Positions 12,862 through 28,589 of a stretch of 32,884 nt of DNA are shown one piece after another. The DNA comes from Gammaproteobacteria bacterium (GTDB lineage: Bacteria > Pseudomonadota > Gammaproteobacteria > Thiohalospirales > Thiohalospiraceae): NCBI GenBank assembly GCA_024277575.1, contig JAJRUX010000096.1, forward strand, positions 1 to 32,884, given 5' to 3'. Within the stretch, counting starts at the first letter, position 1; every line of letters begins with the position of its first letter. Position numbers and translations under genes: made by a program. The notes below the pieces were generated by a model that had not been told where the DNA came from, searched no databases, and worked only from the letters and a program-made list of their open reading frames with translations.

Positions 12862-13799
12862 GGGGAGGAAACCCCATCAGGACGGGTCTTGAACAACCGC
12901 AGTGACCACATGTACTGTTCCGGCTGCTGGCGGATCATCCTTTCCAGCTCAGCATTCATGCGCACCGTATCAGCCGCAATATCCCCGGAAGGAAAATTTT
13001 TCAGCGGCGCAGACAACGATACTCGATAACGCCCCTGTTCCGGAAGATACCAGGTCATGCACGGCACCACCGCTGCACCCGAAAGACGCGCCAGCTTGCC
13101 AAGTGCTGTGATGGTCGCGGTCGGCACACCAAAAAAGGGCACAAAAATCCAGTCGCCTCCCTTTACATGGGTCAGATCCTCATCGGGAAGATAGTAGAAT
13201 GCCTGCCCCTGGCGCAGTGCTCGCACCACAGGTCTCAAACCCTCCTTGCGCAAGTAGAGCCGCCCCCGGTACCGGGTACGGCCACGGCTCATCAACCACT
13301 CAATCACCGGATTGCGTACTGGTTTGATAAGACCAACAGTGGCAAACTGACGGGTAATGGCCGTAGCACCAAAGTCGAGTGCAATGCTGTGGCCAGTAAG
13401 CAGGATTACCGGCCTCCCCTCTTCCTGGCAGCGCTGCAGATACTCCATCCCCTCGATGGAGACCATCTGTTCCAGCCGTTCAGTCCTCCCCCACCACAGG
13501 ACACCGTAATCCAGCGAACTCTGGGCCAGACGACGGAAATAGTCACGCGCCATCTGTTCCCGTTGTGCTGCATCGAACTCAGGAAAACAGAGCTCAAGGT
13601 TAACCAATACAATATGGCGGCGACGTGCATTCATTCGATAGATCAGATCACCAATCCGGCGTCCCAAACCGGCACGCATCCGCCATGGCAAAACACTCAA
13701 CAATCCATACAGCCCCAGACCCAGCCAAGTGGGCCAGTAGCGTGGCGCCAGCAATGCAGGGGAGAAGTGCGGGCGATAGCTGTTATCCTTTTTCGTCAA
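12852..13799 (-). CDS. Lipid A biosynthesis acyltransferase, LpxL/HtrB-like
   Basis: 315 aa; HFSPALLAPRYWPTWLGLGLYGLLSVLPW N-terminus, GHSIALD (HX4D), YYLPDEDLT, VPFFGVPTATITALGKLARLSGA. Confidence 0.9.
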   Translation of the reverse strand: MTKKDNSYRPHFSPALLAPRYWPTWLGLGLYGLLSVLPWRMRAGLGRRIGDLIYRMNARRRHIVLVNLELCFPEFDAAQREQMARDYFRRLAQSSLDYGVLWWGRTERLEQMVSIEGMEYLQRCQEEGRPVILLTGHSIALDFGATAITRQFATVGLIKPVRNPVIEWLMSRGRTRYRGRLYLRKEGLRPVVRALRQGQAFYYLPDEDLTHVKGGDWIFVPFFGVPTATITALGKLARLSGAAVVPCMTWYLPEQGRYRVSLSAPLKNFPSGDIAADTVRMNAELERMIRQQPEQYMWSLRLFKTRPDGVSSPYL

Positions 13800-14680
13800 C
13801 GCAGTTCACTCAACAGCCGCTCCATCATCTGCTCCGCCTGACGCAGATATCCGCTACCAAACAGATTCAGATGATTGAGAATATGGTAGAGATTATACAG
13901 ATCGCGACGCACGGGATACCCGTCATCAAGCGGCCACTCTTCATTATAGGCCGCATAAAAGCGGGTTGGGAAACCACCAAACAGCTCAGTCATGGCAATA
14001 TCCGTTTCCCGATCGCCAAAGTAAACTGCAGGGTCAAAGATTACCGGCTGACCATAACGGGTCACTGCCTGATTCCCCGACCAAAGGTCACCATGCAGCA
14101 GGGAGGCAGGTGGCATATAACTGGAGAACAGCGCAGGAAAGAGTTGCAAAAGCAGCTCCCCCTTTCGTTGCAGACTCCCACCATAACCATTTTCTTCTGC
14201 CAGTTGCAGCTGATAACCCAAACGCTGTTCGCGCCAGAACTCCGGCCAATCGCTGCCGGGGATATTAATCTGGGGAGTGGAGCCAATGGTGTTGTCTCTC
14301 GACCATCCGTAATCGGATCGGGTGTGACGATGCATCCGGGCCAACTCATGACCCAGACGTTGTGAAGCATCTCCTGCCCTGAAGAAAAGATACTCCAGCA
14401 CCAGAAAGGCACGATTCTCCACCGAACCAAAGCAGACTGGAGCCGGGACAGCCACCGTACCGGTATCGATTATCTCCTGCAGACCTGCAGCTTCGGCGAC
14501 AAACATCTCCTCATTGCAGGAGCTATTTGTTTTTACAAAAAAGCACCGCCCGCCTGTCCCATCGAGCCGCCATGCTTCGTTAATGCAGCCACCGGTAACA
14601 GCTGAACGCTGTGCAACAATAAACGGAACCCCTGTCGCCTCGCTGATCTGTTGCGAAATTTGCCGCCAAATCATTACCAC
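13796..14680 (-). CDS. Fructosamine/ketosamine-3-kinase family protein
   Basis: 294 aa; FFVKTNS, LLHGDLWSGNQAVTRYGQPVIFDPAVYFGDRETDIAMTELFGGF (aminoglycoside-phosphotransferase-like fold, FN3K family). 4-nt overlap with the downstream acyltransferase. Confidence 0.88.
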   Translation of the reverse strand: MVMIWRQISQQISEATGVPFIVAQRSAVTGGCINEAWRLDGTGGRCFFVKTNSSCNEEMFVAEAAGLQEIIDTGTVAVPAPVCFGSVENRAFLVLEYLFFRAGDASQRLGHELARMHRHTRSDYGWSRDNTIGSTPQINIPGSDWPEFWREQRLGYQLQLAEENGYGGSLQRKGELLLQLFPALFSSYMPPASLLHGDLWSGNQAVTRYGQPVIFDPAVYFGDRETDIAMTELFGGFPTRFYAAYNEEWPLDDGYPVRRDLYNLYHILNHLNLFGSGYLRQAEQMMERLLSELR

Positions 14681-14748: not shown

Positions 14749-16209
14749 TCAGCGCCGGCTGCCGGAGGTCACCTGCAAACTGGGCGGCATCCGCTTGACC
14801 GACAAGTTGTCCCGAACAAAGGTCCGATAGGGCAGCTCACCAACGTAGCGAACCATCGCCAGGTAGGTCACAGCAAAGGTCAACAGGGTGCTGGCAAAAT
14901 AGCCGGCACCGTAGAAAGGAAAGCCCATATTCAAGCTGACAAAGGTAAATACAATATTGGTAACAAGAAACAACCCCTGCAACGCCAGAACCAGACGGCG
15001 GAAATCAAAGTAGGTAAGAATAATAAACTGCATTACCAACAACACATGGAAAAAAGCACCCAGCACCCCGAACCGGAACATCCCAATCTGGGTGTAACTG
15101 AAACCGATCAACTCATACAACCGCGGCGACAGCAGCAACAGTACAATAACAATACACCCCTGTAATACGATCATGCTGCGCAGCCCGCTAGTCAGGCTCG
15201 CCGTTATTCGGGTCAGATTTTGTTGAATTCGTTCAAAATTAACGTGTTTCTGGATATCCCGATAGAACCGCAGGTACTGCATGAAAAAGTTGGTTTCCAC
15301 GCTTATCACAAACATCGCCAGACCCGGAATAATCGAGAGATAAGCAAGAAACATGGCAGCATCATAGTCAGGATATGATGGCATACCGGGGATGATCATC
15401 TCCCGCTCCGGTGCATACAGCCACATAATCCACTTGTCCACCCAGATTGCCAGATTATAAAACAGACCGGCCAGCGCCAACTCCCAGTAACGGCGGAAAT
15501 AGCGGACAAAACCAAATGGCTCCCGCGCATCTGCCGTGTACTCGGAGAATATATAGGCAATCAACCCGAACATTATTACTGCAAGTCCGATGGAAAAACC
15601 CATCAACATCCCTGCCAGGGAATAATTGCCGGCAAACAGCCAGGCAAGCAACAGTGACAGTATCAAACCCACCAGGAATGTTGTGGAAATAACATGATAG
15701 GCCTTCAGCGCAGTAAGATATACCGCGACCACCCATAATCCCGCAACCAGAAAATAGTTAACCATCGCGGCCACACGAATAATCGGTTCAAGCTCTACGT
15801 ACCAAAGATAAAACACGGCAACAAGCGGAAACTGGGTCAGAAATACCAGCACTACCGAACCAAGCAGCATCCCCGGCACTTTATTGAGCGCAGCTCCGCC
15901 GGAGCGCTTTCTATCAGAAGATTCATCTCCTGCACTGAAAACGAGATCTGCCAGATAGCGCGTCACAACCATGAAAACAGGCGCGGTAAATGCCAGCGAA
16001 AAAGCAAAGTTATAAATAACGATCAGTCGGAATTCGGCAATGGTCTGGTAACCGGCAACGTCGCTTATCCATATAATCAAGAAAAGTGAAACAATGGTCA
16101 GTATCCATGGACCCGCCGTTACCCAGGTTGAATAGAAGAATCCTGTGATAATACCTAGCAGATCGTCCCGCTGAACCAACTTGCGTAAATTGAACCCAAC
16201 ACCGGCCAT
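14749..16209 (-). CDS. pelG: Pel polysaccharide inner-membrane transport protein PelG
   Basis: 486 aa multi-TM protein beginning MAGVGFNLRKLVQRDDLLGIITGFFYSTWVTAGPWILTI; next to pelF with 1-nt overlap. Confidence 0.92.
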   Translation of the reverse strand: MAGVGFNLRKLVQRDDLLGIITGFFYSTWVTAGPWILTIVSLFLIIWISDVAGYQTIAEFRLIVIYNFAFSLAFTAPVFMVVTRYLADLVFSAGDESSDRKRSGGAALNKVPGMLLGSVVLVFLTQFPLVAVFYLWYVELEPIIRVAAMVNYFLVAGLWVVAVYLTALKAYHVISTTFLVGLILSLLLAWLFAGNYSLAGMLMGFSIGLAVIMFGLIAYIFSEYTADAREPFGFVRYFRRYWELALAGLFYNLAIWVDKWIMWLYAPEREMIIPGMPSYPDYDAAMFLAYLSIIPGLAMFVISVETNFFMQYLRFYRDIQKHVNFERIQQNLTRITASLTSGLRSMIVLQGCIVIVLLLLSPRLYELIGFSYTQIGMFRFGVLGAFFHVLLVMQFIILTYFDFRRLVLALQGLFLVTNIVFTFVSLNMGFPFYGAGYFASTLLTFAVTYLAMVRYVGELPYRTFVRDNLSVKRMPPSLQVTSGSRR

Positions 16210-17726
16210 CAGCTTGCTTCCTCAAGAGCTGTATCATCAACAGATTGGTGACGATAACGTTCATAAAGTTCTCGGTAAGTCCGATCGAAATCGGATTTGT
16301 TGTAATAACGGCGTATTCGTTCACGGATACCATCACTGCCACTCTGGTACCAATGCTGGTCGGTAAGCAACCGTTCTACCGCCTGCGCCGTTGCAGCAGG
16401 ATTGGATAATGGCGTAACAGCGCCACCATGGGGCGGTGGATGAGTATCATGATGATCAGACAGCAGGATCTCCCGACAGGCACCGACGTTGGTCGCAACT
16501 ACCGGAATACCCGCCGCACCGGCCTCCAGAATAACCAATGGCTGACCCTCACTTATACTGGTCAACACCAGAACATCTATTTTTCCCAGATAATCTTCCA
16601 GCCGCACCTGCCCGGTAAAAGTAATGATTTTTTCCAGACCCATGTGATCCACCATCTCCTGGCATTCCAGAAAGTATTGCTCCTCTTCCTCAATGGATCC
16701 CATCACCAGAGCCTGCAAATCCGGGATGCTTTCCTGCAACGTAGCGCAGGCACGAATGAAGGTCTTTACGTCCTTGATCTGCACCACCCGACCAATGAGC
16801 GCAATAGTCGGCGGGCGGGGACTCTGCTCGCGCGGTATCGCCGCGAAACGGTCAACATCCACCCCGTTGGGAATAACCATCATCTTTCCGCGGTTCGCCC
16901 CATCCATAAGCTGAAACAGCTGATTGCCCTCAAACAGAGTGATAATCTTGTGAGCGGCGCTATAGCAACAGCGTGAGTAAGCGGTAAATGCCTTGACCCA
17001 CATGTCACTCAGCTGATGAGGAAGACGATGCACACTCAAACTATCCTCCTCCATCTCGTGAAACCAGCTCGCAAGGGCAATCTCGATACGTCGTTCGTTG
17101 GTATAGATACCGTGCTCGGTCAGCAGAACCGGGCATCCCGTTTCCAGACCCGCTCTGGCAGCAAACAGCCCGGCATAACCCGTTGAGGGAGAATGATAGA
17201 TCCGCGCCCGCGGCATCTCCGCCAGCAGTACTGAATAAATACCACCAAACAGAGCGCGCCATGACCAGAAATAATCAAGGAAAGAGGTTTCGGGATGGGT
17301 CTTGCCGTACATCCGCACCAGCATCTCCCAGGCATAACGTGAATCCAGCAGCACGTTTGCCCCGATTCTCCCCACATGGGGCGTTAATATTGCCCGCACC
17401 TCATCCAGGTCATCCAGTCCACCATCGGTAAGCAGTCGCAACAGCGGCTCCTCGAGACGCGCCAGTAACTGCTTTTCCCCAGACATCCGGGACTCGCCTT
17501 TTGGAATTCGCTGCAACACGATTTGGGTAGTCGCCAGGACATTATCCGGCAGCTCATACCGATAGGTCAGATCAGCATCAGGGGCTACCAGAAAAACCAG
17601 GTGAAAAGTCAAGTGAGACTGCGCCTTGATAAGCTCATGTGTCCAGGATGACACCCCTCCTGATACAAAGGGATAGCTACCTTCCAGGATGATACAAACA
17701 TCCGCCTGTGCCGTGGTTTTATCCAT
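16209..17726 (-). CDS. pelF: Pel glycosyltransferase PelF (GT4-type)
   Basis: 505 aa; VCIILEGSYPFVSGGVSSWTHELIKAQ, LIGRVVQIKDVKTFIRA, TSISEGQPLVILEAGAAGIPVVATNVGACREIL. Confidence 0.95.
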   Translation of the reverse strand: MDKTTAQADVCIILEGSYPFVSGGVSSWTHELIKAQSHLTFHLVFLVAPDADLTYRYELPDNVLATTQIVLQRIPKGESRMSGEKQLLARLEEPLLRLLTDGGLDDLDEVRAILTPHVGRIGANVLLDSRYAWEMLVRMYGKTHPETSFLDYFWSWRALFGGIYSVLLAEMPRARIYHSPSTGYAGLFAARAGLETGCPVLLTEHGIYTNERRIEIALASWFHEMEEDSLSVHRLPHQLSDMWVKAFTAYSRCCYSAAHKIITLFEGNQLFQLMDGANRGKMMVIPNGVDVDRFAAIPREQSPRPPTIALIGRVVQIKDVKTFIRACATLQESIPDLQALVMGSIEEEEQYFLECQEMVDHMGLEKIITFTGQVRLEDYLGKIDVLVLTSISEGQPLVILEAGAAGIPVVATNVGACREILLSDHHDTHPPPHGGAVTPLSNPAATAQAVERLLTDQHWYQSGSDGIRERIRRYYNKSDFDRTYRELYERYRHQSVDDTALEEAS

Positions 17727-17818
17727 ATTCTGTCCCTCAAATACTCCGACAATTTTTCATGACGGATTTATTAACTCGGCGCTGCAACGTGATCGGATTC
17801 GCAAAGCGCTGAACCTCA

Positions 17819-18931
17819 TCAACTTGACGAGGCGCTTCGCCCCAGCCACATCTGAATTGCATCAGCAATTCGTGGCCGCTGTTTGCCTGGCCCGTCAATA
17901 AAAGAGTTCCCGTGTTCACGCAAAAGTTTACGCAGCTCCTGGTAGTGCCCCAATTTGTACAAACATTCGGCATACCAGAGCATGAGTTGCGGCTCACCGT
18001 TTCGAAACTGCAACGTTTGACGCAACCGCTCAGCCGCCTCTTCCACCTCGCCCGTCCGTATCAACAGGCGACCCAGCCCTAGGGTCGCAGGATAGTTTTC
18101 CGGTTGCAATCTGATTATTTCACGATAAATCTGTTTGGCTTTCTCCAGGTTCACTTCCTCACGATCCCGCTCCAGCAAACCGGTAAAGGCGTAATCATCG
18201 TATAGCCTCGCCTGCCGAAGCAGTGTATCGATATCATCCGGAGCATTGGCAACGGCTCTATCCACCAGCATGGCTTTTTCCAGGAACTCGTTTTCTATCC
18301 GGGCTATTGACGAAGCAGCCATAACCCGAATCGAGTTGTCCGGATCCAGCAGGGCACTACGCAGGGCTGGGGCAAACTCAGGGCGAAAATGTTTACTCAT
18401 CAGCACAATGGCATCCCGCTTTTGCTGCAGGGTGCCATTGGCAAGAATATCTCTAAAGGAATCGGGAGCAGAAACTCCACCCAAGGCGCTGTGGACTTCA
18501 AGAAAATCGGCCAGTTCGGCAACTTCATCCCGTTGCTCTTTTGGAAACAGGCCGGTATACCAATCTTCAAAGCTTGTGGTCGTCCGTCGGTACCAGGCAT
18601 ACAGTGCAATAGTGAGTAGCGTCCCCATGACACCTATCGGACCAAACGCCGCCGTCGCAACCAGAAACAGATACACCGTGCGACGCTTTACCCCTCCCGG
18701 GCAATGAAACAGTTTCTGCTGCCAGAAAAGCAGTAGTGCCACCAGCAGAATGTGCAGTACAGCAGCCCACCCTATAGACAAAACATCCGCCGCCGTACCG
18801 TACAGGAGCATCAGCTCCAGCACCAACGTAATCAGCAACACGACAGCAAACTGAATACGGCAACCGGATGAGGTTTTGCGCCCCTTCACTGGTTGCTGGA
18901 TATATTTACTGCTTATTGTTGGGGCAGTCAT
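17819..18931 (-). CDS. pelE: PelE-like inner-membrane protein with cytoplasmic TPR/HEAT-like helices
   Basis: 370 aa; N-terminal TM helices, then helical repeats (AKQIYREIIRLQPENYPATLGLGRLLIRTGEVEEAAERLRQTL); located between pelD and pelF. Confidence 0.82.
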   Translation of the reverse strand: MTAPTISSKYIQQPVKGRKTSSGCRIQFAVVLLITLVLELMLLYGTAADVLSIGWAAVLHILLVALLLFWQQKLFHCPGGVKRRTVYLFLVATAAFGPIGVMGTLLTIALYAWYRRTTTSFEDWYTGLFPKEQRDEVAELADFLEVHSALGGVSAPDSFRDILANGTLQQKRDAIVLMSKHFRPEFAPALRSALLDPDNSIRVMAASSIARIENEFLEKAMLVDRAVANAPDDIDTLLRQARLYDDYAFTGLLERDREEVNLEKAKQIYREIIRLQPENYPATLGLGRLLIRTGEVEEAAERLRQTLQFRNGEPQLMLWYAECLYKLGHYQELRKLLREHGNSFIDGPGKQRPRIADAIQMWLGRSASSS

Positions 18932-18992
18932 AGTTTATACCTGGTGTCATGTCCAATAACAAAATAAACAACTAAGCGGGAGTATGAAGATC

Positions 18993-20375
18993 TTAAATCC
19001 TAACCGCCCACGATGCTTCTCGTAACTCCCCCCCCAACTCACTCTGGAGGGCCTGCAGCAACCGCTCTTCCACAATTCGGGCATTTCGCGTCGGTGTGGC
19101 CGGAAGAATGATGGTAAATTCCCGGCCATTATTGCGCCGGTCAAAGGCCAGATCCGTGGTACGCAACACCTGATCAACCGCCTTGCTCAACGCAACCGGC
19201 GCATGAGAGCGCACATCCTTTGGCAGTTCATCGTAGTTCTGAAGCGCTATATCGATCTGCGCAAGAGCAAAGTTATGTCGCCGGGCCAGAGATGTTAAAA
19301 AGGCCGTCTGGCGAGTGTAATAATTGGAAGACAAAAACAGTCCGCTGTCGTTGACGACACTGTTCTCTTTCGCGGTATGAAACCGCCGAGCATTACCATA
19401 GACCGTACCAATCCATTCACACACCACCTCGAAATTCTTGATGGTTGTCCAGCCCAGTTCGATAAAATCCAGCTCTTCGATTTTGAGCATACCGATAACC
19501 TCGCCGGTTTCGGCGTTGGTTAATGGTCCTGCCAGGATGCCCTGCCGGTCCAGTATATGCTCATCATTCTCGTTGGAGATACTCAAGATGCGGCGACGCG
19601 CAACCACCTCCTGAAACAAGGGATGTTCCGCTCCAATAACTCGCAGATACTCATCCTTTCCTGTCCAGCCGGTATGTACCGCCGCTTCCAGCACATCCTG
19701 GCTAAGAATAAATACCGAGGATTTCTGCGGATTCATCACGGCACGGACCATATCCATGATGCTGAACAAAACCTTGCCCGAATCGAGTTGCTCCAGTGAT
19801 TTTACCGCCTGATGCATGGAGATAACGGTACGCATCTGACCTGCAACACGCACCTCCAGATCGGTTTTGATCTCTTGCTGACGCTGATAGGCATCGGCAA
19901 TAACCTTCTCATTTCGACGTGCTTCTTCCAATTGTTTACGCAGCTGTTCACGTTCCCGCAAATGACGCATGCGCAACTCGCCCAAAAACACAGCAGCAAC
20001 AAACCACATCAGCGGACGACGCACTATGTTGAACAGATAATCATAGAGATCCTGATTCAGGGTCTGCTCGGGAATACCCACCGCCAGCAAAACAACCGTC
20101 GCCGCCAGGGCGGCAAGTACGCCTTCCGCTGTGCCGTACTGTACTGTAACCAAAAGTATGATTAGCCAGAACGGATGTGGTGTGACATACCAGAATGAAT
20201 CTGCATCAAAAACGAACTGATCCAGCAAGATAGCCAGCACAAAAAACAGGGCAATCTCCAGCAATGCTGAGCGTCTTACACCCAGAATCCGGACCGGTTT
20301 GTGCTCCAAATCCTTTGCGGCATTTTCCGCCGCATTATCTGCAAATTTCGGGCGCTGCAATATCTCGGTCTTCAT
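18993..20375 (-). CDS. pelD: PelD-like c-di-GMP receptor (TM + GAF + degenerate GGDEF)
   Basis: 460 aa; N-terminal TM helices, coiled coil, GAF-like region, then VLRTTDLAFDRRNNGREFTIILP: RxxD I-site next to a degenerate GGDEF. Confidence 0.9.
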   Translation of the reverse strand: MKTEILQRPKFADNAAENAAKDLEHKPVRILGVRRSALLEIALFFVLAILLDQFVFDADSFWYVTPHPFWLIILLVTVQYGTAEGVLAALAATVVLLAVGIPEQTLNQDLYDYLFNIVRRPLMWFVAAVFLGELRMRHLREREQLRKQLEEARRNEKVIADAYQRQQEIKTDLEVRVAGQMRTVISMHQAVKSLEQLDSGKVLFSIMDMVRAVMNPQKSSVFILSQDVLEAAVHTGWTGKDEYLRVIGAEHPLFQEVVARRRILSISNENDEHILDRQGILAGPLTNAETGEVIGMLKIEELDFIELGWTTIKNFEVVCEWIGTVYGNARRFHTAKENSVVNDSGLFLSSNYYTRQTAFLTSLARRHNFALAQIDIALQNYDELPKDVRSHAPVALSKAVDQVLRTTDLAFDRRNNGREFTIILPATPTRNARIVEERLLQALQSELGGELREASWAVRI

Positions 20376-20950
20376 TGTTTGCCTTCCATCATTTGTTGTG
20401 ACAGCTCTTGCACCAGGCGCATTACCACTCGCTGTGCGGCCTCAGTCATGCTATCCCTTCCCAGATAGGCACTACCCACTTCAGAAGCACTGGCCGCCCA
20501 CAAAACCGCTCCATCAGTACGAATCAGGCGAACACTGATGCCAACAACCGGTTGCTTGCGGAAACCATAGCGATAGCCATATTCCGTTACACTACCGATT
20601 AAAACAGCATCGGCTCCTGCAGCCCGTGCCATCGCTACAGGCTCATCTGTTGAATGATTTCCAACAGGCTGTGCAGCATTTAACAGTGGAGATTCCTGTA
20701 CCGAAAACAGGCCTTCTTTATACAGCTCTGTGGCTACAATCTTGGCAACAGCAACTCCCGCCTTGGGATGAACCGTAAGATTTTGGAAGGGAACAACAAG
20801 CACACTCCCATCGCGCTGAGGCGGCGGAGAGTTGCTGATAAAATTACGCTCCAGATGAGAGCCGGTAGTACACCCTGAAAGCCAGAGCGCCGCCACTGCA
20901 AACAAGACAAATGCGACAGCTTTATAGCGGCTGTTTATGCCTGTATTCAT
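20372..20950 (-). CDS. pelC: PelC-like outer-membrane lipoprotein, copy 2
   Basis: 192 aa; lipobox LSGC; VLIGSVTEYGYRYGFRKQPVVGISVRLIRTDGAVLWAAS; ATGA overlaps on both sides. Confidence 0.85.
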   Translation of the reverse strand: MNTGINSRYKAVAFVLFAVAALWLSGCTTGSHLERNFISNSPPPQRDGSVLVVPFQNLTVHPKAGVAVAKIVATELYKEGLFSVQESPLLNAAQPVGNHSTDEPVAMARAAGADAVLIGSVTEYGYRYGFRKQPVVGISVRLIRTDGAVLWAASASEVGSAYLGRDSMTEAAQRVVMRLVQELSQQMMEGKQ

Positions 20951-21633
20951 GATGGACTCCCCTCTGCCTCCCCGGCAACTGTACTACGCTGCCTAACCTG
21001 TTTATCACCGGCATTGTCCAGCAGCGAGGTTGAGCAACGCAGTTCATTCGCATCCAGCTGCTGCAGCTCTGTTGCCAGGGTATGTACAACCCGCTGCGCG
21101 GCCTGATTAAGGCTGTCACGATGTATAAAACCACGCCCGGTAACACTTTGACTGGAGGCCCAGACAACCTGTCCATCACAACCACGCACCATTCGCACGC
21201 TCAGGCCAACCACAGGCTCTTCGCGTAAACCATGTTGATAACGATACTCTGTCACGCTACCCAGCAGCACTGCATCCACACCGAGCTTGTGTGCCAACTG
21301 CTGGGCACGGGGTACGCTTCGAGTCTGCTTGTCCCCCTCCTTCTCATTGCGCAGCTGCTGGAGCAGCGCCGATTCCTCGCGAATCAGGAACGCCCCCTGC
21401 TGATACAGCTCAGTATTCATCAACTGAGTCAATATCTGACCCGCATTGGGGTGCTCGCTCAGGTTCTCAAACGGCAGAACCGCCACGTGAGGGGTATCCG
21501 GAGAAACAGTCCGGCTCTGTGCCCCATCTTTCTCTATTCCCTTGTTACTTGCACAAGCAGAAAGAGCGAACACAACAAGCAGAACCACCCCGAACAAACC
21601 TGTCTGTTTACTACCGAACTTTTTTTCCAACAT
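20947..21633 (-). CDS. pelC: PelC-like outer-membrane lipoprotein, copy 1
   Basis: Start at 21633 (MLEKKFGSKQTGLFGVVLLVVFALSACASN, lipobox LSAC) with upstream AAGGGA; VLLGSVTEYRYQHGLREEPVVGLSVRMVRGCDGQVVWASS. The ORF track start at 21813 would overlap the preceding gene. Confidence 0.82.
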   Translation of the reverse strand: MLEKKFGSKQTGLFGVVLLVVFALSACASNKGIEKDGAQSRTVSPDTPHVAVLPFENLSEHPNAGQILTQLMNTELYQQGAFLIREESALLQQLRNEKEGDKQTRSVPRAQQLAHKLGVDAVLLGSVTEYRYQHGLREEPVVGLSVRMVRGCDGQVVWASSQSVTGRGFIHRDSLNQAAQRVVHTLATELQQLDANELRCSTSLLDNAGDKQVRQRSTVAGEAEGSPS

Positions 21634-21704
21634 CACGATTTTATCCCTTGTCATAAATGCAACTAATGGGCGCTGATATACTCCACCCGGGAATTTCCGA
21701 AAAA

Positions 21705-23306
21705 TCAGAAACGCCACAACAGATAACAGCCTGCCCGCGTATAACGGGCGTACTCTCCACGATACGGACCTGCACTGTGAACAAACTTCAGACCGGTCTC
21801 CAGACCGAGCCACGGTTCGTAAGCCAGATTAGCTGTCACAAACGGTCCACCAGCCTCATTGCGCGGATCATAGCTGGCGCCAATGCCAGCCTCATAGCGC
21901 AAATAATCACTTAGTCGATCAAACCACATGGCATCCAGCGTATGTACCTGGCGGGACACCACCGGCAGCGGATGATAATCAATTCCCGCATACCGCCGCG
22001 TGTCAACAGAGGTTCGCTCTTCCAGATCCAGGTTGTAACCAACGCTCAGTCGCGGCGCCACTTCCTGCAACAACAGCCGGGCACCGAGCTTGACGCCATA
22101 ACTGCCGGCTACACTATTGTCATCCTTGACTCCGTAATTTCGCGCTGAAGCTGCAATATAAGTTGAGAGAGCTTCATCCACCGGCCGCCGCCAGCCATCC
22201 CGGCCCGGCCGTTCCCAACCCACGGTCAGGCTATCAACGGTACCACCATCCACCACCCCTTCGACATACTGCCATGCCGGCGCCTGATAGCTTGCATCTA
22301 TCCAGACCCGCGCAAGATCCAGACGCTGGGAGTATTCAGCTCGCAAGCCAACAGCACCTTCATTTCCGCCAGACAAGGTCAAACGCGTGTGGGCTGCCCA
22401 ATCAAAGTGCCGTTGCGCATGCAGTTCAAAATACTCTCTTTCACCACTAAATGAGCCCAGCGGACCATCGATACGACGTAACTCGTTGTCCCGTATTGAA
22501 CGTCGCTCATATGTAAAACCCAGTTGGGCTCTCTCCCCGAAAAGCTGATATCCCGACAACCGGGAAATCTGCTGCCAGTCAGCATCATGCAGTTGCTGCC
22601 AATCCATATCCAGACGCAGACGGGGACCGTACTCATACAACAAACCGGCCTTCGCCGCGATTACCGGCGCATCCTCCCGCCCCATATGCAGTGCCTGGTT
22701 ATAGTAGGTAACGGCCCGCTGCCACTGCCCAAGGCGCGCTTCAATACCGGCCATCTCCGGTAACAACTCTCCGCTGTCCGGATACTGCTCATGCAGCTCC
22801 GCCAATTTTCCACGGGCTGCAAACAACCTTCCGCTCTCCGCCAGCCAAAGCGCTCGCAACCGCTCGAGACGAAGTGCAGTTGCCTCTCGTTGCCGCAAGG
22901 ACAATCTGGACTGCTTTTCTGCATCAGCAACCTCCGGACGGGAGATTAATTCTAGAGCAATATGGGTGTCATCCTCCGCCTGAACACGAAAAATGACATC
23001 CCGCCCGGCGTGTATCAACAAACTGTCATAGCCGGTACTGCTCCAGTCAATCCACCCAGCCGCACGGCTAGTCATATCAGCAAGCAATGAGGGGAGGAGA
23101 GGAGAGGAAAACCGTAAAACCACCTCTCTTCCATCCACTTCATGCCGCACACTCACGGGTTCATTCCAGACGAAAACCAGTCGTAACCGCTCTGCACCAG
23201 AATCAACGTGCAGTTCAACACCATTATCGGCATGTACCATTGGGAGCGCAGATAACATTACCAGTAACATCAGCGCCGGTAACATGTTCCTGTGAAGCCG
23301 CATCAT
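21705..23306 (-). CDS. pelB: Outer-membrane beta-barrel protein corresponding to the PelB C-terminal porin
   Basis: 533 aa; cleavable signal MMRLHRNMLPALMLLVMLSALPMVHA, short TPR-like segment, alternating aromatic beta-strands, and C-terminal Phe (CYLLWRF) typical of an OMP beta-signal. Confidence 0.8.
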   Translation of the reverse strand: MMRLHRNMLPALMLLVMLSALPMVHADNGVELHVDSGAERLRLVFVWNEPVSVRHEVDGREVVLRFSSPLLPSLLADMTSRAAGWIDWSSTGYDSLLIHAGRDVIFRVQAEDDTHIALELISRPEVADAEKQSRLSLRQREATALRLERLRALWLAESGRLFAARGKLAELHEQYPDSGELLPEMAGIEARLGQWQRAVTYYNQALHMGREDAPVIAAKAGLLYEYGPRLRLDMDWQQLHDADWQQISRLSGYQLFGERAQLGFTYERRSIRDNELRRIDGPLGSFSGEREYFELHAQRHFDWAAHTRLTLSGGNEGAVGLRAEYSQRLDLARVWIDASYQAPAWQYVEGVVDGGTVDSLTVGWERPGRDGWRRPVDEALSTYIAASARNYGVKDDNSVAGSYGVKLGARLLLQEVAPRLSVGYNLDLEERTSVDTRRYAGIDYHPLPVVSRQVHTLDAMWFDRLSDYLRYEAGIGASYDPRNEAGGPFVTANLAYEPWLGLETGLKFVHSAGPYRGEYARYTRAGCYLLWRF

Positions 23307-25444
23307 ATTTTCTGCCCCCCTACTGCCAAAACCTCTCCCGCCTGATCGATATGGCCGGTCTCGATCAGGACAGTGGCAAAATCAGCCCGCAAATCAGGGT
23401 TGTCGGGATAAGCAGCCAGTAACTCTTGAAATGCGAGAATTGCGTTGTCTCGTTCACCGAGTCGATAAAGGCTCTGGGCCCGAACACTCGCCTTGCGCAT
23501 ATCCAGCTCCGGTTCTGCCGCAAGCAACTGAATAACCCGGCGGTAATAGGGTACTGCCAGTTGTGTCTTGTTCCGCCGCGTCAGTAGTTCAGCATAAAAA
23601 TAGTTGCTCTCCACATCACCACTGGTGGTGTTGAGATAACGCCCAAGCATGTCAAATGCATCTTCCCAGCGCCCTTCCTGATAAGCGAGCAAACCGAGCC
23701 TTCGAAGCATGTCGGGATCGCCAGGAGCGATAGCAAGAATGCGTCTGCTGGCCTCCAGTGCCAAATCTGTAAAACCAACCTGATCCGCTCGACGTATATG
23801 GCGACGCAGCTGTTCAACGCTCTGACTGTCTCTTATGGCTTGGCTCAGGACAAGACGCAAGCGAGGGTAATCCTCTTCCCGCTGCAGGATGTCCATCTGA
23901 AATTCAACCGGCTCGCCACTAAAACCGAGTGACACAAGATCACTCTCACCCATTTTCAGCACGCGCTCGGTAGCACCTATATCGAGTAACCGCTCCAACC
24001 ACGCCAGCCGTTGTTTACCCTGTGCGCTGCGAGCCCGCTCTTCCACCCACTGCAATCCAAGCGGTTCAGGCCGGGGACCCCAGATATAAAGCAATTGACT
24101 TACTTCAGGACTTTCGGCCGGTGCTTTTGCAGCCAGTTCCATATAGATCCTCTCTGCCAGAAGCTTGTCCCCCAACTTCAAAGCACGGTATGCCAAAGCC
24201 CGCTTCTCTTTCCGGCTCAGATTCGGCTGTTTTAGCTGCAGTCGCAACAGGGCGAGCAGCTCGTTATGCCGACCTGCTTTCTGCAGGGCTGTTTCATAGC
24301 GATAACTCATCTCCTTCCTTTCTTCATCACCGAGATCGGAACGCATCAGCTGCTGCTGCCAAAATGCAAGCAACTCTTCCTGCCGCTTTGCCTTGCGCAG
24401 CATGGATTCGTAGCGGTAGGTAACCGCCTCCCTCTCCTCTGGACTCAGACCTGGACGCTGAATCTGATCCAGCAGATAGGCAAGCAGCGTCTGCTGGCGG
24501 TTGTTCTCACGCAATGCCGCTTCATAGCGTTCACCCAGCTCCCGGCGCTGCTGTTCATCCAAATCGGAACGCAGCAATTGCTGGCGCAGGAAAGCCAGCC
24601 GTTTCTCCTCACGTCCCAGCTCACGCAGGGTAGTCTCATAGCGATAGCTGATTTCCCGCTTCTCCTTGTCGCTCACATCAGCTCGAGTAAGCTGACGATC
24701 CCAGAAGGCAAACAGTTCTGTATAACGACCCGCTCCAGCCAGTGCCCGCTCATAGTAAGCAGTCCATCTGCCACCGCGATTACCATAACCCTGGAGGTAA
24801 GTAATTGCCCCTTCATACTGCCCCAGATCCAGAGAAAGGCTTACCAGAAACTCCCGTGCCCGCATATCAAACGCAGCTGGGTGCTCACGCGCAAGCTTGC
24901 GCAGTATATCTGTCGCTTCAACAATATCCCCTTCTGCCGCCAGCAAATAGGCAAGATCAAGATAGTCATGCGGCTGTGCTTCATAGTCCTGCACAATACG
25001 CTTCAACACCTCGATCTGCTGGCGATAACGCCCCTCAGCATTGTAAAGTTGCGAAAGATTGCGCAAGGCTTGCTCCGAGGGCTGTACCTCCGTCCGTTTT
25101 TCCAGACTACCGAGATAATCATGAGGACGCTGGGTCTGCTGATAAAATTTACTCAGCCTCAACCGGGCTTCCATATTGCCCGGATTGTATTCAACAAAGG
25201 TTTCCATCAACTCTACCGCTTTGCCCATCTCTCCATAGATGAGGTATAGATCGGAAAGTGGCAGCACCACGTTGGCAGACGCATCTCCTTTCTCCAGCAA
25301 ATTTTCGTACTCTGCACGTGCCGCTGTATATTGCTGGTTTTTATAATGCATCAACGCCAACTCGGAGGGGCGTGGATAAACCAGATAACCGCCAACCAGC
25401 CCCAGCGCCACCACCAGCAAAACGATAAAATGCGCATTCCTCAT
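23303..25444 (-). CDS. pelB: TPR-rich scaffold protein corresponding to the PelB N-terminal region
   Basis: 713 aa; N-terminal TM anchor MRNAHFIVLLVVALGLVGGYLVYP, many TPR-like helices, ~37-aa tandem repeats; ATGA overlap with the barrel gene. Confidence 0.8.
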   Translation of the reverse strand: MRNAHFIVLLVVALGLVGGYLVYPRPSELALMHYKNQQYTAARAEYENLLEKGDASANVVLPLSDLYLIYGEMGKAVELMETFVEYNPGNMEARLRLSKFYQQTQRPHDYLGSLEKRTEVQPSEQALRNLSQLYNAEGRYRQQIEVLKRIVQDYEAQPHDYLDLAYLLAAEGDIVEATDILRKLAREHPAAFDMRAREFLVSLSLDLGQYEGAITYLQGYGNRGGRWTAYYERALAGAGRYTELFAFWDRQLTRADVSDKEKREISYRYETTLRELGREEKRLAFLRQQLLRSDLDEQQRRELGERYEAALRENNRQQTLLAYLLDQIQRPGLSPEEREAVTYRYESMLRKAKRQEELLAFWQQQLMRSDLGDEERKEMSYRYETALQKAGRHNELLALLRLQLKQPNLSRKEKRALAYRALKLGDKLLAERIYMELAAKAPAESPEVSQLLYIWGPRPEPLGLQWVEERARSAQGKQRLAWLERLLDIGATERVLKMGESDLVSLGFSGEPVEFQMDILQREEDYPRLRLVLSQAIRDSQSVEQLRRHIRRADQVGFTDLALEASRRILAIAPGDPDMLRRLGLLAYQEGRWEDAFDMLGRYLNTTSGDVESNYFYAELLTRRNKTQLAVPYYRRVIQLLAAEPELDMRKASVRAQSLYRLGERDNAILAFQELLAAYPDNPDLRADFATVLIETGHIDQAGEVLAVGGQKI
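24175..24720 (-). repeat. About five in-frame ~37-aa tandem repeats inside the PelB-like TPR protein
   Basis: ELFAFWDRQLTRADVSDKEKREISYRYETTLRELGRE / KRLAFLRQQLLRSDLDEQQRRELGERYEAALRENNRQ / TLLAYLLDQIQRPGLSPEEREAVTYRYESMLRKAKRQ / ELLAFWQQQLMRSDLGDEERKEMSYRYETALQKAGRH / ELLALLRLQLKQPNLSRKEKRALAYRALK. Confidence 0.85.
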
Positions 25445-27672
25445 CAGACCGTCTCCTGCCGGTAATCAATATGAATCTGTACCGTTTGATTAGGTACCTT
25501 GGAATCGATAGCAAAATGCAGCTGTTTTTCCTCGGAAACTGCAACTGTTTGGCGCCTGATTTCACCACTTTTATTGGTTACACTAATCACATAATCACCT
25601 GCCTGCGGCACCCGCCAGATCATTTTTCCCTTACCAAATCCCATTGTTTCAAAACTGAACGAACTTGGCCTGCGCTGCACTCCCCATACCCGCCAGTTTG
25701 AGCCGATCAGATAGGGAAAAGATGAGTCTGGCTCCCTGTCGCTGTCACCATAATCACGTAGAGCAACAACGGCATCAGACACTGTTTGATCAAGAGCCAC
25801 GTAAAGAGAACCCTGATAGTGATACTGACCCACCACACCATGCGAATCTCCAAAATCAACAGCGGAAAAAAGCGCGTGGTCAAAGCGCAATGTCTGCAGC
25901 GCCTGTCGATTATTGATACGCCACTGCCGTTCACCCGTCTGCTCTATCTGAGTGGTAAAAAAACCCTCAGCAATCGCTGCATAATGGCTGGTGGTAACCG
26001 GAATAATCGGCTGGCTACGCGCATAGTCCAGGTTCGCCCGTACTGCATTGAGACTGGAGAGTTTCTGCCCAGAGTACATGTGATAATAGACTCCCATTGG
26101 TTTGATCCGCACCGGAGTCTCCGTGTTATTGAGCGTTCGAGTCAGGTGCCTATAGCCAAAAAACTGCTCTGACCACTGGTCAGTGTATGTGTTTTCATTA
26201 CTATTGGAAGCATATATCTGTAACTGCCCCCCTGACATCTGGCCCAGAGGAGATACCCAGCCATACGATGGATACTTGCGATCCAGACGGGTATCTCCCC
26301 CATTGATATTACGAACGCCCAACTTCCGCGTAAGCTCTATTGCAGCAGGAAAAGGATTGGTATCACCAGACCACTGGTAAACCTGTACCTTTTTACCTTG
26401 TGGTAACAGGGAATTGACAAACCTGATTGCCCCTTCTATCTCCAGCTCCAAATCAAAGGGTTTAACCGCATAGGCGCGTGGTGTGACATAACCGGTTTTT
26501 TTGTAGTAGACGCTATCTGTCTTGCCGACCTTCCGCAAGGCACCCTTCCCTTGCCACGGTCTGCTATAGAATCTCAAGAAAGGCCGCTCCTTGTCAGGAT
26601 CACCGTCTGCAAAAAAGCCCCAGTCAAAAGGATGACTGTAGGTATGGCTGCCAGCCTCCACTTGCGGCAATGCCAAAATTTCTCGAGCAACCCGCAGACT
26701 TTTCCGGCTCCCATGCCATGCCGGATCAATATCACCGGCTATGGGAGCAACAGTGACCGGCAGCTCCGGATAAGCCTCGATGATCTCGTGCTCGACAATC
26801 TCCGAAGCGAGAATCCCTCTGTTCCTATAAGGATAAATCTCGGTAAGATTATTCCAGCCATCACCATCAATATGACTGAAGAAAATGCGCTTTCCGGCAA
26901 GCGTAGTGGTATCCGGTTTGGGCAGCTCATCTGTAGTCAGCGCCCGGCGGAAAAATTCAAACGGGTTGATATACCACTGAACGGTATCAGTGGATTCGTT
27001 ATGGAAATAGGCATATCCCGATGCAATCCATCCGCCTTTGCGGGTAATTACCACCAGGTCACTATCAGTGGCAGGATCGCCGGATTGACGCACTTTCAGA
27101 CCTGAGTAACCCTGTCCCTCGATTACACTCAACCGTTCGTAACCAGGCAACACGCCACCGACCCGGCGCTCGAAATCCACAAGTTCAGGATCCCTGAATA
27201 CGATTTTTGACTTGTAGGTAAGAGGTATCCAGTCATCCCCACTACGCAATCCCAGCTTCACCCAGAACTGATCAATCAGCTCCTCACGCGACAGCTGCTC
27301 CGAATCATCCTCACTGCCGAAACCACCGACCATGATCAACCGCTTGCCGCTATCCAGGATCTCTCCGGCCCACGCAATGAAATCGCCGGGATCCTCCATC
27401 TGCACGGCCTCCCAGACCAGAACACCTCTTACCTCCGGAATTGAAGCCGGTAGAGGCAATGGTTCATTGATATCGTGATAACGAACGACAAGCCCCAGAT
27501 GGTTAAGCGGCATCTCTGCCAACCGATGGATGGCAGAAAAGCGCGGCTCGGCAACACTCCTTCCGTCATACAGGGCCAAGATGGTGCGCGGAATAACCCG
27601 GGCACAAAGCGGCTGAACCTGAACAGCCAACAGCAAAAGCAGCCAGCAGGTAAAGAGGAGGCGTTTATTCAT
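25444..27672 (-). CDS. pelA: PelA-like polysaccharide deacetylase protein (lacks the N-terminal hydrolase domain)
   Basis: 742 aa; signal peptide; deacetylase motifs HIDGDGW (26854-26874) and SHTYSH (26632-26649, HxxxH metal site); C-terminal beta-rich region. Confidence 0.87.
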   Translation of the reverse strand: MNKRLLFTCWLLLLLAVQVQPLCARVIPRTILALYDGRSVAEPRFSAIHRLAEMPLNHLGLVVRYHDINEPLPLPASIPEVRGVLVWEAVQMEDPGDFIAWAGEILDSGKRLIMVGGFGSEDDSEQLSREELIDQFWVKLGLRSGDDWIPLTYKSKIVFRDPELVDFERRVGGVLPGYERLSVIEGQGYSGLKVRQSGDPATDSDLVVITRKGGWIASGYAYFHNESTDTVQWYINPFEFFRRALTTDELPKPDTTTLAGKRIFFSHIDGDGWNNLTEIYPYRNRGILASEIVEHEIIEAYPELPVTVAPIAGDIDPAWHGSRKSLRVAREILALPQVEAGSHTYSHPFDWGFFADGDPDKERPFLRFYSRPWQGKGALRKVGKTDSVYYKKTGYVTPRAYAVKPFDLELEIEGAIRFVNSLLPQGKKVQVYQWSGDTNPFPAAIELTRKLGVRNINGGDTRLDRKYPSYGWVSPLGQMSGGQLQIYASNSNENTYTDQWSEQFFGYRHLTRTLNNTETPVRIKPMGVYYHMYSGQKLSSLNAVRANLDYARSQPIIPVTTSHYAAIAEGFFTTQIEQTGERQWRINNRQALQTLRFDHALFSAVDFGDSHGVVGQYHYQGSLYVALDQTVSDAVVALRDYGDSDREPDSSFPYLIGSNWRVWGVQRRPSSFSFETMGFGKGKMIWRVPQAGDYVISVTNKSGEIRRQTVAVSEEKQLHFAIDSKVPNQTVQIHIDYRQETV

Positions 27673-28589
27673 ATGCGGGGCTCTGGAACAATACGATCCA
27701 ATGCGACTGTCGCCACGTACGGGACAAAACCGTTCGCCCGCTGCTCACGATAGATAGCGGCAATACCCGCGTGATCCTGCGGCTCCCAGTAGTCCAGGGT
27801 AAAGACCTTCAATGCCGGGTTATGTCGGACCGCCTCTTTCAAATAGGCCAGCTGCTGCTGATAGAGCTGTTTCGGAACGCGCTGGTAGGACTTGCTCTCG
27901 AAATCATAGTCGGCATACACCGATTCCCCCAACACGATATCGATGTCACCCGCGACCTGCGGCAAAATCTCATAGGCCCGATTCAGCATTATCTTGATAT
28001 GGGGGTAATGCTTGCGAATGGTGCGTACCAGACGGATAGCCGCATCAGTCATTCCCTGGTAACGTTGGGGATCTTGTCGCTCCAGATGCAGAGGGCTGTC
28101 CAGAGTATCAAGGAATACGCCATCGAATCCTTGATGTAACAGGGCAGGAATCAACTCATAAATAACCCGTTCAGTCCAGTTTCGATCGCGAATATCAATA
28201 CTGTGACTACCCGCCCAATTGGGATTCTCATCCAACAGGAGACCTTCTTTGCGCACCTCTCCAAAATAGTGGCGATGCTGCTCTGCCTCCCCCAAACTGA
28301 GATAACCCAGCAAAGTCTTTCCATGTTCAGACAAAGGAGCAAGCTCCGGGCGATAGTCGCTATCGAGAACCAGCAGCGCATAGGCGTTGAAATCCCTTGG
28401 CGAAGCCTTATCGGAGTAATACGCAAGCCACCGCTGGCCCTCTGCTGCACCCGCTTTCATCGCGAGGCCGTTTGGAAGTAGAGCAAAATACAAAGTAAAT
28501 AAAAGTAGACTACGCAGCATAGCTGGATAAACTTTTCCATGTAATTTAGTCTGGGACGGTCGGTGGCGCCATTTTTTTGTCATCGCCAT
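27669..28589 (-). CDS. PelA-like endo-hydrolase protein (GH114/GH166-like TIM barrel) as a separate polypeptide; start may be at 28520
   Basis: GQRWLAYYSDKASPRDFNAYALLVLDSDYRPEL, GFDGVFLDTLDSP (candidate catalytic Asp), IDIVLGESVYADYDF (candidate catalytic Glu). MLRSLLLFTLYFALLPNGLAMKAGAA starting at 28520 looks like a signal peptide. Confidence 0.82.
   Translation of the reverse strand: MAMTKKWRHRPSQTKLHGKVYPAMLRSLLLFTLYFALLPNGLAMKAGAAEGQRWLAYYSDKASPRDFNAYALLVLDSDYRPELAPLSEHGKTLLGYLSLGEAEQHRHYFGEVRKEGLLLDENPNWAGSHSIDIRDRNWTERVIYELIPALLHQGFDGVFLDTLDSPLHLERQDPQRYQGMTDAAIRLVRTIRKHYPHIKIMLNRAYEILPQVAGDIDIVLGESVYADYDFESKSYQRVPKQLYQQQLAYLKEAVRHNPALKVFTLDYWEPQDHAGIAAIYREQRANGFVPYVATVALDRIVPEPRI

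Follow-up and report, generated by a model that had tools for sequence, protein, structure and literature searches.

The stretch of DNA analysed here (the window; 32,884 nucleotides) is one entire contig of a 2.4-Mb draft metagenome-assembled genome (MAG) of a gammaproteobacterium, and it carries a ten-gene pel operon in which PelA and PelB are each divided between two genes and two PelC lipoproteins lie in tandem. We read it, with a probability of about 0.8, as a complete Pel exopolysaccharide (EPS) operon that would be gated by cyclic di-GMP (c-di-GMP) and that belongs to a second, "split" lineage of Pel loci (type II, as opposed to the Pseudomonas-like type I), with a tandem pelC duplication specific to its genus. 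This reading draws directly on gene identities, domain content, active-site and I-site residues, the barrel fold, lineage placement and the intactness of the genes. All ten genes are present, tightly packed and co-directional on the minus strand, running from 28589 to 14749 in the following order (TPR, tetratricopeptide repeat; AF2, AlphaFold2).

27669..28589, minus strand: pelA-H, secreted GH114-type alpha-1,4-N-acetylgalactosaminidase, the PelA hydrolase domain as a separate protein (Pfam GH114, E 1.6e-24; PelA hydrolase 5tcb, E 1.8e-22)
25444..27672, minus strand: pelA-DA, PelA minus the hydrolase, with its own signal peptide (PelA 9cgy, E 1.1e-54)
23303..25444, minus strand: pelB-N, inner-membrane-anchored TPR scaffold of 713 aa (TPR_19, E 1.6e-21)
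21705..23306, minus strand: pelB-C, outer-membrane barrel protein (AF2 model, pLDDT 86.8; Foldseek top match PelB 9h80_M, E 1.8e-15; hhalign to fused-type PelB, 97.7%, E 1.8e-12)
20947..21633, minus strand: pelC1, lipoprotein of the PelC family, LSAC lipobox (PelC 9h80, E 9.1e-12)
20372..20950, minus strand: pelC2, lipoprotein of the PelC family, LSGC lipobox (PelC 5t11, E 3.9e-12; 9h80, E 4.6e-12)
18993..20375, minus strand: pelD, membrane helices, GAF domain, degenerate GGDEF domain and RxxD I-site (GAF_3, E 5.9e-8)
17819..18931, minus strand: pelE, membrane and TPR protein (TPR_19, E 7.7e-12; operon position; homologs found at other Pel loci)
16209..17726, minus strand: pelF, GT4 glycosyltransferase (NCBIfam PelF, E 3.7e-127, 425 bits against a cut-off of 100)
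14749..16209, minus strand: pelG, membrane exporter (Pfam PelG, E 8e-125, 418 bits against a cut-off of 29)

Divided PelA and PelB in an intact operon

A sequence-only reading of this DNA had proposed ten co-directional genes, mostly joined by overlaps of 1-4 nt, with a split PelA, a split PelB and a duplicated PelC. We recovered the same open reading frames (ORFs), order and gene identities, and both splits and the second PelC are real. Overlaps are found at pelA-H/pelA-DA (4 nt), pelA-DA/pelB-N (1 nt), pelB-N/pelB-C (4 nt), pelC1/pelC2 (4 nt), pelC2/pelD (4 nt) and pelF/pelG (1 nt), the exceptions being three gaps, at pelB-C/pelC1 (71 nt), pelD/pelE (61 nt) and pelE/pelF (92 nt). Nine genes are backed by family, structure or profile matches or by conserved sites, and pelE by its TPRs and synteny. 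The arrangement is confirmed as real and beyond chance. Three further genus members have it in full, and others in part (the genus relatives compared were gammaproteobacterial MAGs).

The same reading had allowed that the splits might be sequencing frameshifts. We give frameshifts of sequencing or assembly in an ordinary operon next to no credence. The source genome is indeed a draft MAG in 221 contigs, but independent MAGs, as well as other taxa, show identical boundaries, every piece has its own start together with a signal or anchor sequence, and the fourth gene carries both a signal peptide and an additional domain. We rejected sequencing error on these conserved boundaries and on the low dN/dS values of 0.04-0.16, indicative of purifying selection, in the nine operon genes measured, both pelC genes included.

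In pelA-H the catalytic Asp (FLDTLDS) and Glu (GES) are retained in the alignment to 5tcb, and translation probably starts at Met 28520, ahead of the signal peptide MLRSLLLFTLYFALLPNGLA. The pelA-DA product aligns to residues 253-824 of the PelA 9cgy chain, that is, after the hydrolase, and comprises three of the four PelA domains (mixed alpha/beta, CE21 deacetylase and beta-rich) with the HIDGDG, SHTYSHP and YYHMYSG motifs, so that the hydrolase and CE21 deacetylase active sites are both present in the operon. The isolated hydrolase domain of Pseudomonas PelA does not bind PelB, and in an AF2 model the alpha/beta and deacetylase domains form the PelB interface (PMC12022489). Since only the hydrolase is cut off, the predicted PelA-PelB contact stays within one chain.

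The pelB-N product has an uncleaved N-terminal helix, like PelB, and is homologous to the N-terminal portion of fused PelBs of 1450 aa. For the barrel protein, phmmer and profile searches of the PDB gave no PelB match, and its identity came from the AF2 model and Foldseek. In that model the signal peptide precedes an additional beta domain at residues 31-122. Next come two pairs of TPR-like helices with a stalk, at 129-226, and then the barrel of 16 strands (229-532); a short helix separates its strands 7 and 8, at the place occupied by Plug-I in the Pseudomonas PelB barrel (PMC12141448). The TPR scaffold and 16-strand barrel that characterise PelB are thus supplied jointly by pelB-N and pelB-C. 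A barrel-only Pseudomonas PelB loses PelC, and the TPRs and stalk are needed to hold it (PMC12141448); because these remain in the fourth gene, the PelC-holding contact also remains in one chain. The proposal that the multidomain proteins had been resolved into single-function polypeptides is therefore an overstatement: the second gene keeps three PelA domains, and the fourth keeps TPRs and stalk.

The remaining genes contain the PelF-type GT4 enzyme adjoining a PelG exporter that marks a Pel biosynthesis system. The I-site of PelD reads RTTD and falls in the RxxD columns of the alignment, which are 96% R and 94% D across PelDs, with a downstream Arg at the position of the second Arg; the c-di-GMP site is kept, and binding is predicted. 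The Pfam PelD_GGDEF profile found no match in the genome, an uninformative result because its control matched nowhere either, and phmmer and profile comparison of PelD with the PDB gave no PelD match. As the window PelD has a GAF domain, a GGDEF remnant and RxxD without a PelD_GGDEF match, type-II PelDs may escape annotation. Elsewhere, PelD and PelE matches in one 722-aa ORF (L071) suggest a PelD-PelE fusion. The operon is flanked by a divergent priA (29120 onward) and, on the other side, by a kinase-like gene (13796-14680) that by eye resembles fructosamine kinases.

Two lineages of Pel loci

We surveyed Pel loci in Pseudomonadota and found PelG (E <= 0.001) in 24 of 369 sampled genomes of the class and 34 of 399 of the phylum. 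A tree of PelF and PelG separates two deep lineages at 100% SH-aLRT, and the genus of the window lies inside the split lineage. In type I, hydrolase and deacetylase share one ORF (22 loci); no type-II locus showed this fusion. Type-II loci with a split PelB are those of the window genus, Caenispirillum bisanense (L032), a Lambdaproteobacteria MAG (L033), the gammaproteobacterium G167 (L090), L034, L113 and L107-L111, which belong to one small class; some ten Rickettsiales-like loci have a fused PelB. The split layout is therefore a lineage trait, not special to this organism. No PelG was found in other members of the window's family (four genomes searched), which, together with the tree placement, suggests that the genus acquired its Pel locus by transfer.

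Close counterparts (L107, L108, L110, L111 and C. bisanense) share nine gene functions, the gene order, the split points, the PelC subtype and the extra domain of the barrel protein, but have one PelC. L109 resembles its class neighbours except that its pelA-H and pelA-DA are divergent. In L033 and L090 PelA and PelB are split, the extra domain is present and the order is the same with D-E-F-G, but no PelC is recognisable. Two very divergent clusters of a gammaproteobacterial family (f52; L092, L093) consist of PelDEFG only, with no PelA, PelB or PelC found, and a Chlamydiae MAG (L036) has three tandem PelA-DA-like deacetylase genes adjoining PelF and PelG.

The extra beta domain is shared across type II and was unmatched in every Pseudomonas-type PelB compared. 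In the fused 1450-aa PelBs of the Rickettsiales-type loci it occupies roughly residues 955-1065, with the long TPR scaffold on one side and the ring TPRs on the other. The PelB cut falls immediately before this domain in most split members and after it in L113, which makes repeated splitting (or joining) of PelB probable. In L096 (7748-12247) a PelC profile match within a 1500-aa ORF suggests a natural PelB-PelC fusion.

The novelty claimed for the ten-gene layout thus stands only in part. The splits are shared by other taxa, a 2020 survey already reports pelB fission (PMC7112194), and separate pelAH and pelADA genes are known in Gram-positives (PMC7112168); the PelC pair was seen only in the genus. 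In B. cereus, hydrolase and deacetylase are separate, as in the window, but the system (pelDE-ADA-FG with a separate pelAH) has no outer-membrane parts, its pelAH lies outside the operon and its PelADA is membrane-anchored (PMC7112168).

The depth of the split bears on the product. A related but non-identical polymer, differing in sugar, linkage or acetylation, would make the system Pel-like, which we think unlikely. In its favour, type-II PelF and PelG are deeply separated from their Pseudomonas counterparts, PelC pore residues differ (see below), and the PLoS Comput Biol survey warns of possibly different EPS from divergent loci (PMC7112194). Nevertheless, the hydrolase and CE21 catalytic residues are retained, PelF exceeds the NCBIfam equivalog cut-off, and Pseudomonas PelAh cuts the polymer of the distant B. 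cereus system (PMC7112168).

Natural variants occur within the genus. In G003, a 100% complete genome, the deacetylase gene is absent genome-wide, pelA-H is followed directly by pelB-N, and nine genes are kept. This genome is the sole carrier, among 14 searched, of a secreted polysaccharide-deacetylase-like gene, which lies about 3.3 kb from the operon and is missing from the rest of the genus; the encoded DUF2334/Polysacc_deac_1 protein with a PEP-CTERM-like tail is a possible replacement (L012, 13667-13765 and 18176-19273). In G006 (L015, 10650-11110) remnants of pelA-H, pelA-DA and pelC2 precede an intact pelDEFG, and the operon is in decay. A single deacetylase loss shared by these sister genomes was rejected, as pelA-DA remnants persist in G006.

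The PelC pair and its putative contact with the barrel

The second PelC of the sequence-only reading proved to be part of a tandem pair fixed in the genus and not seen in the other taxa searched. All six genus genomes with a fully assembled pelC region (the window, G001, G003, G004, G005 and G007) have neighbouring pelC genes, a count that leaves out G002, where a contig end cuts the region, and G006, where it is lost. No other adjacent pair was found in the 48 genomes searched of the class of L107-L111 plus 28 genomes. G387 and G418 have two PelCs each, on different contigs, and L084 has an additional PelC fragment downstream of PelG, cut at the end of the examined stretch. Text searches limited to open-access literature returned no report of a PelC pair, and the tandem pair appears to be new.

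The pelC1 start lies at 21633, which corrects 21813. PelC1 and PelC2 are 36% identical. They form separate clades across the genus (support 99/97 and 97/92), and both genes are under purifying selection. By reading of the alignment, all five genus PelC1 sequences have a C-terminal extension and carry two Cys besides that of the lipobox, features absent from PelC2. We considered whether PelC2 is an in-genus copy of PelC1: in the PelC tree PelC1 groups with single PelCs at weak support (83/50), and an approximately unbiased (AU) test did not reject monophyly of the two (p 0.34). The AU result leaves room for a lineage-local duplication, and within-operon duplications are common among EPS operons (PMC7112194); even so, a neutral or dosage event with the mechanism unchanged seems improbable to us, given the low identity of the copies, their separate conservation in the genus and the features specific to PelC1.

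A putative mixed PelC1/PelC2 ring is the attractive reading of the pair. The two proteins may instead have different jobs, one forming the barrel ring and the other a second ring, an adaptor to the TPR scaffold or an assembly factor, a possibility that we put below even odds. The extension and extra Cys of PelC1, a divergence of the copies that predates the genus radiation and the existence of type-II loci without any recognisable PelC speak for it; against it, both copies retain the PelC core, the lipobox and the type-II D-loop under similar purifying selection. The type-II loci L090, L033, L034, L113, L035, L037 and L043 encode an outer-membrane barrel, but nothing recognisable as PelC lies in the interval from the barrel gene to PelD.

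In Pseudomonas PelC, a charge change at Asp-119, which contacts PelB arginines, abolished biofilm, and W149A destroys the PelBC complex, according to published work. At the position of Asp-119, in the D-loop, type-I PelCs have Asp (25 of 27) or Asn (2 of 27), and type-II PelCs have Arg (15 of 16) or His (1 of 16). Trp-149, at the lipid anchor, is conserved in 21 of 27 type-I PelCs and in none of type II, where a 3-residue insertion is adjacent. Both window PelCs have Arg at the first position; at the second, PelC1 has Arg and PelC2 Ser, with the insertion alongside. The type-II PelC clade is supported at 100/100. Because both residues needed in Pseudomonas are replaced, type II must hold the PelC ring, if one is formed, differently. 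The replacement was not surfaced by the same text searches, and this type-II signature looks new on sequence grounds.

In the Pseudomonas-type assembly Asp-119 meets arginine-rich periplasmic turns of the barrel, and we examined whether acidic turns compensate the charge swap of D119R. The net charge of the turns averages -4.3 in type II and +1.3 in type I, but the window barrel is near neutral (-1) and the turns are equally acidic in type-II members without PelC. The mechanistically distinct secretion machine suggested by the sequence-only reading is conceivable for the PelC ring only, on sequence-level evidence. We tentatively propose, while thinking it more doubtful than probable, that the exporter of the split lineage is built differently, with a PelC-barrel contact that lacks both Pseudomonas-essential residues and, in this genus, a PelC1/PelC2 hetero-oligomeric ring in which a disulfide linking the two additional Cys of PelC1 would lock that protein.

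Proposed export pathway and its meaning

From these features we infer the polymer, the scaffolding and the ring composition as follows. PelF would polymerise UDP-GalNAc, and PelD, PelE and PelG would carry the chain over the inner membrane. The anchored TPR protein may scaffold the deacetylase PelA-DA. The chain would then thread a lipoprotein PelC ring, most likely shared by PelC1 and PelC2, that is seated on the TPRs and stalk of the separate barrel protein, and would exit through the barrel, while the untethered hydrolase may trim the polymer or free matrix. Non-covalent contact would replace the covalent bridge that Pseudomonas PelB forms from inner to outer membrane.

Three points weigh against this account. 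The match of the barrel to PelB is structural and, in sequence, weak. The shared ring has equally fitting alternatives, in which there are two rings or one PelC acts outside the ring. Finally, members of the genus can do without the full gene set, since G003 lacks the deacetylase and G006 is intact only for PelDEFG.

The window shares with Pseudomonas aeruginosa pelABCDEFG all seven functions, the A-B-C-D-E-F-G order, the catalytic residues, the PelD RxxD and the 16-strand barrel with a Plug-I helix. It differs in having two genes each for PelA and PelB, two PelCs, replaced Asp-119 and Trp-149, an additional beta domain ahead of the ring TPRs and a PelB-N not covalently linked to the barrel. 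Separate scaffold and barrel proteins are also found in the alginate system (AlgK, a TPR protein, and AlgE, a barrel), which differs in polymer and fold details and has no PelC ring.

The current Pel mechanism rests on Pseudomonas, with one PelB bridging both membranes, one bi-enzymatic PelA and a homomeric 12-mer ring of PelC that Asp-119 and Trp-149 keep in place. By cutting this bridge, freeing the hydrolase and substituting both of these residues, a naturally occurring lineage shows which parts of that scheme are dispensable, and it offers ready-made separate proteins for reconstitution. PelC, though counted as a hallmark of Gram-negative Pel systems, varies from zero to one or two copies inside this one lineage. 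If the hetero-oligomeric ring is true, export would run through an asymmetric ring of two components, an arrangement unreported for synthase-dependent polysaccharide systems in the literature searched.

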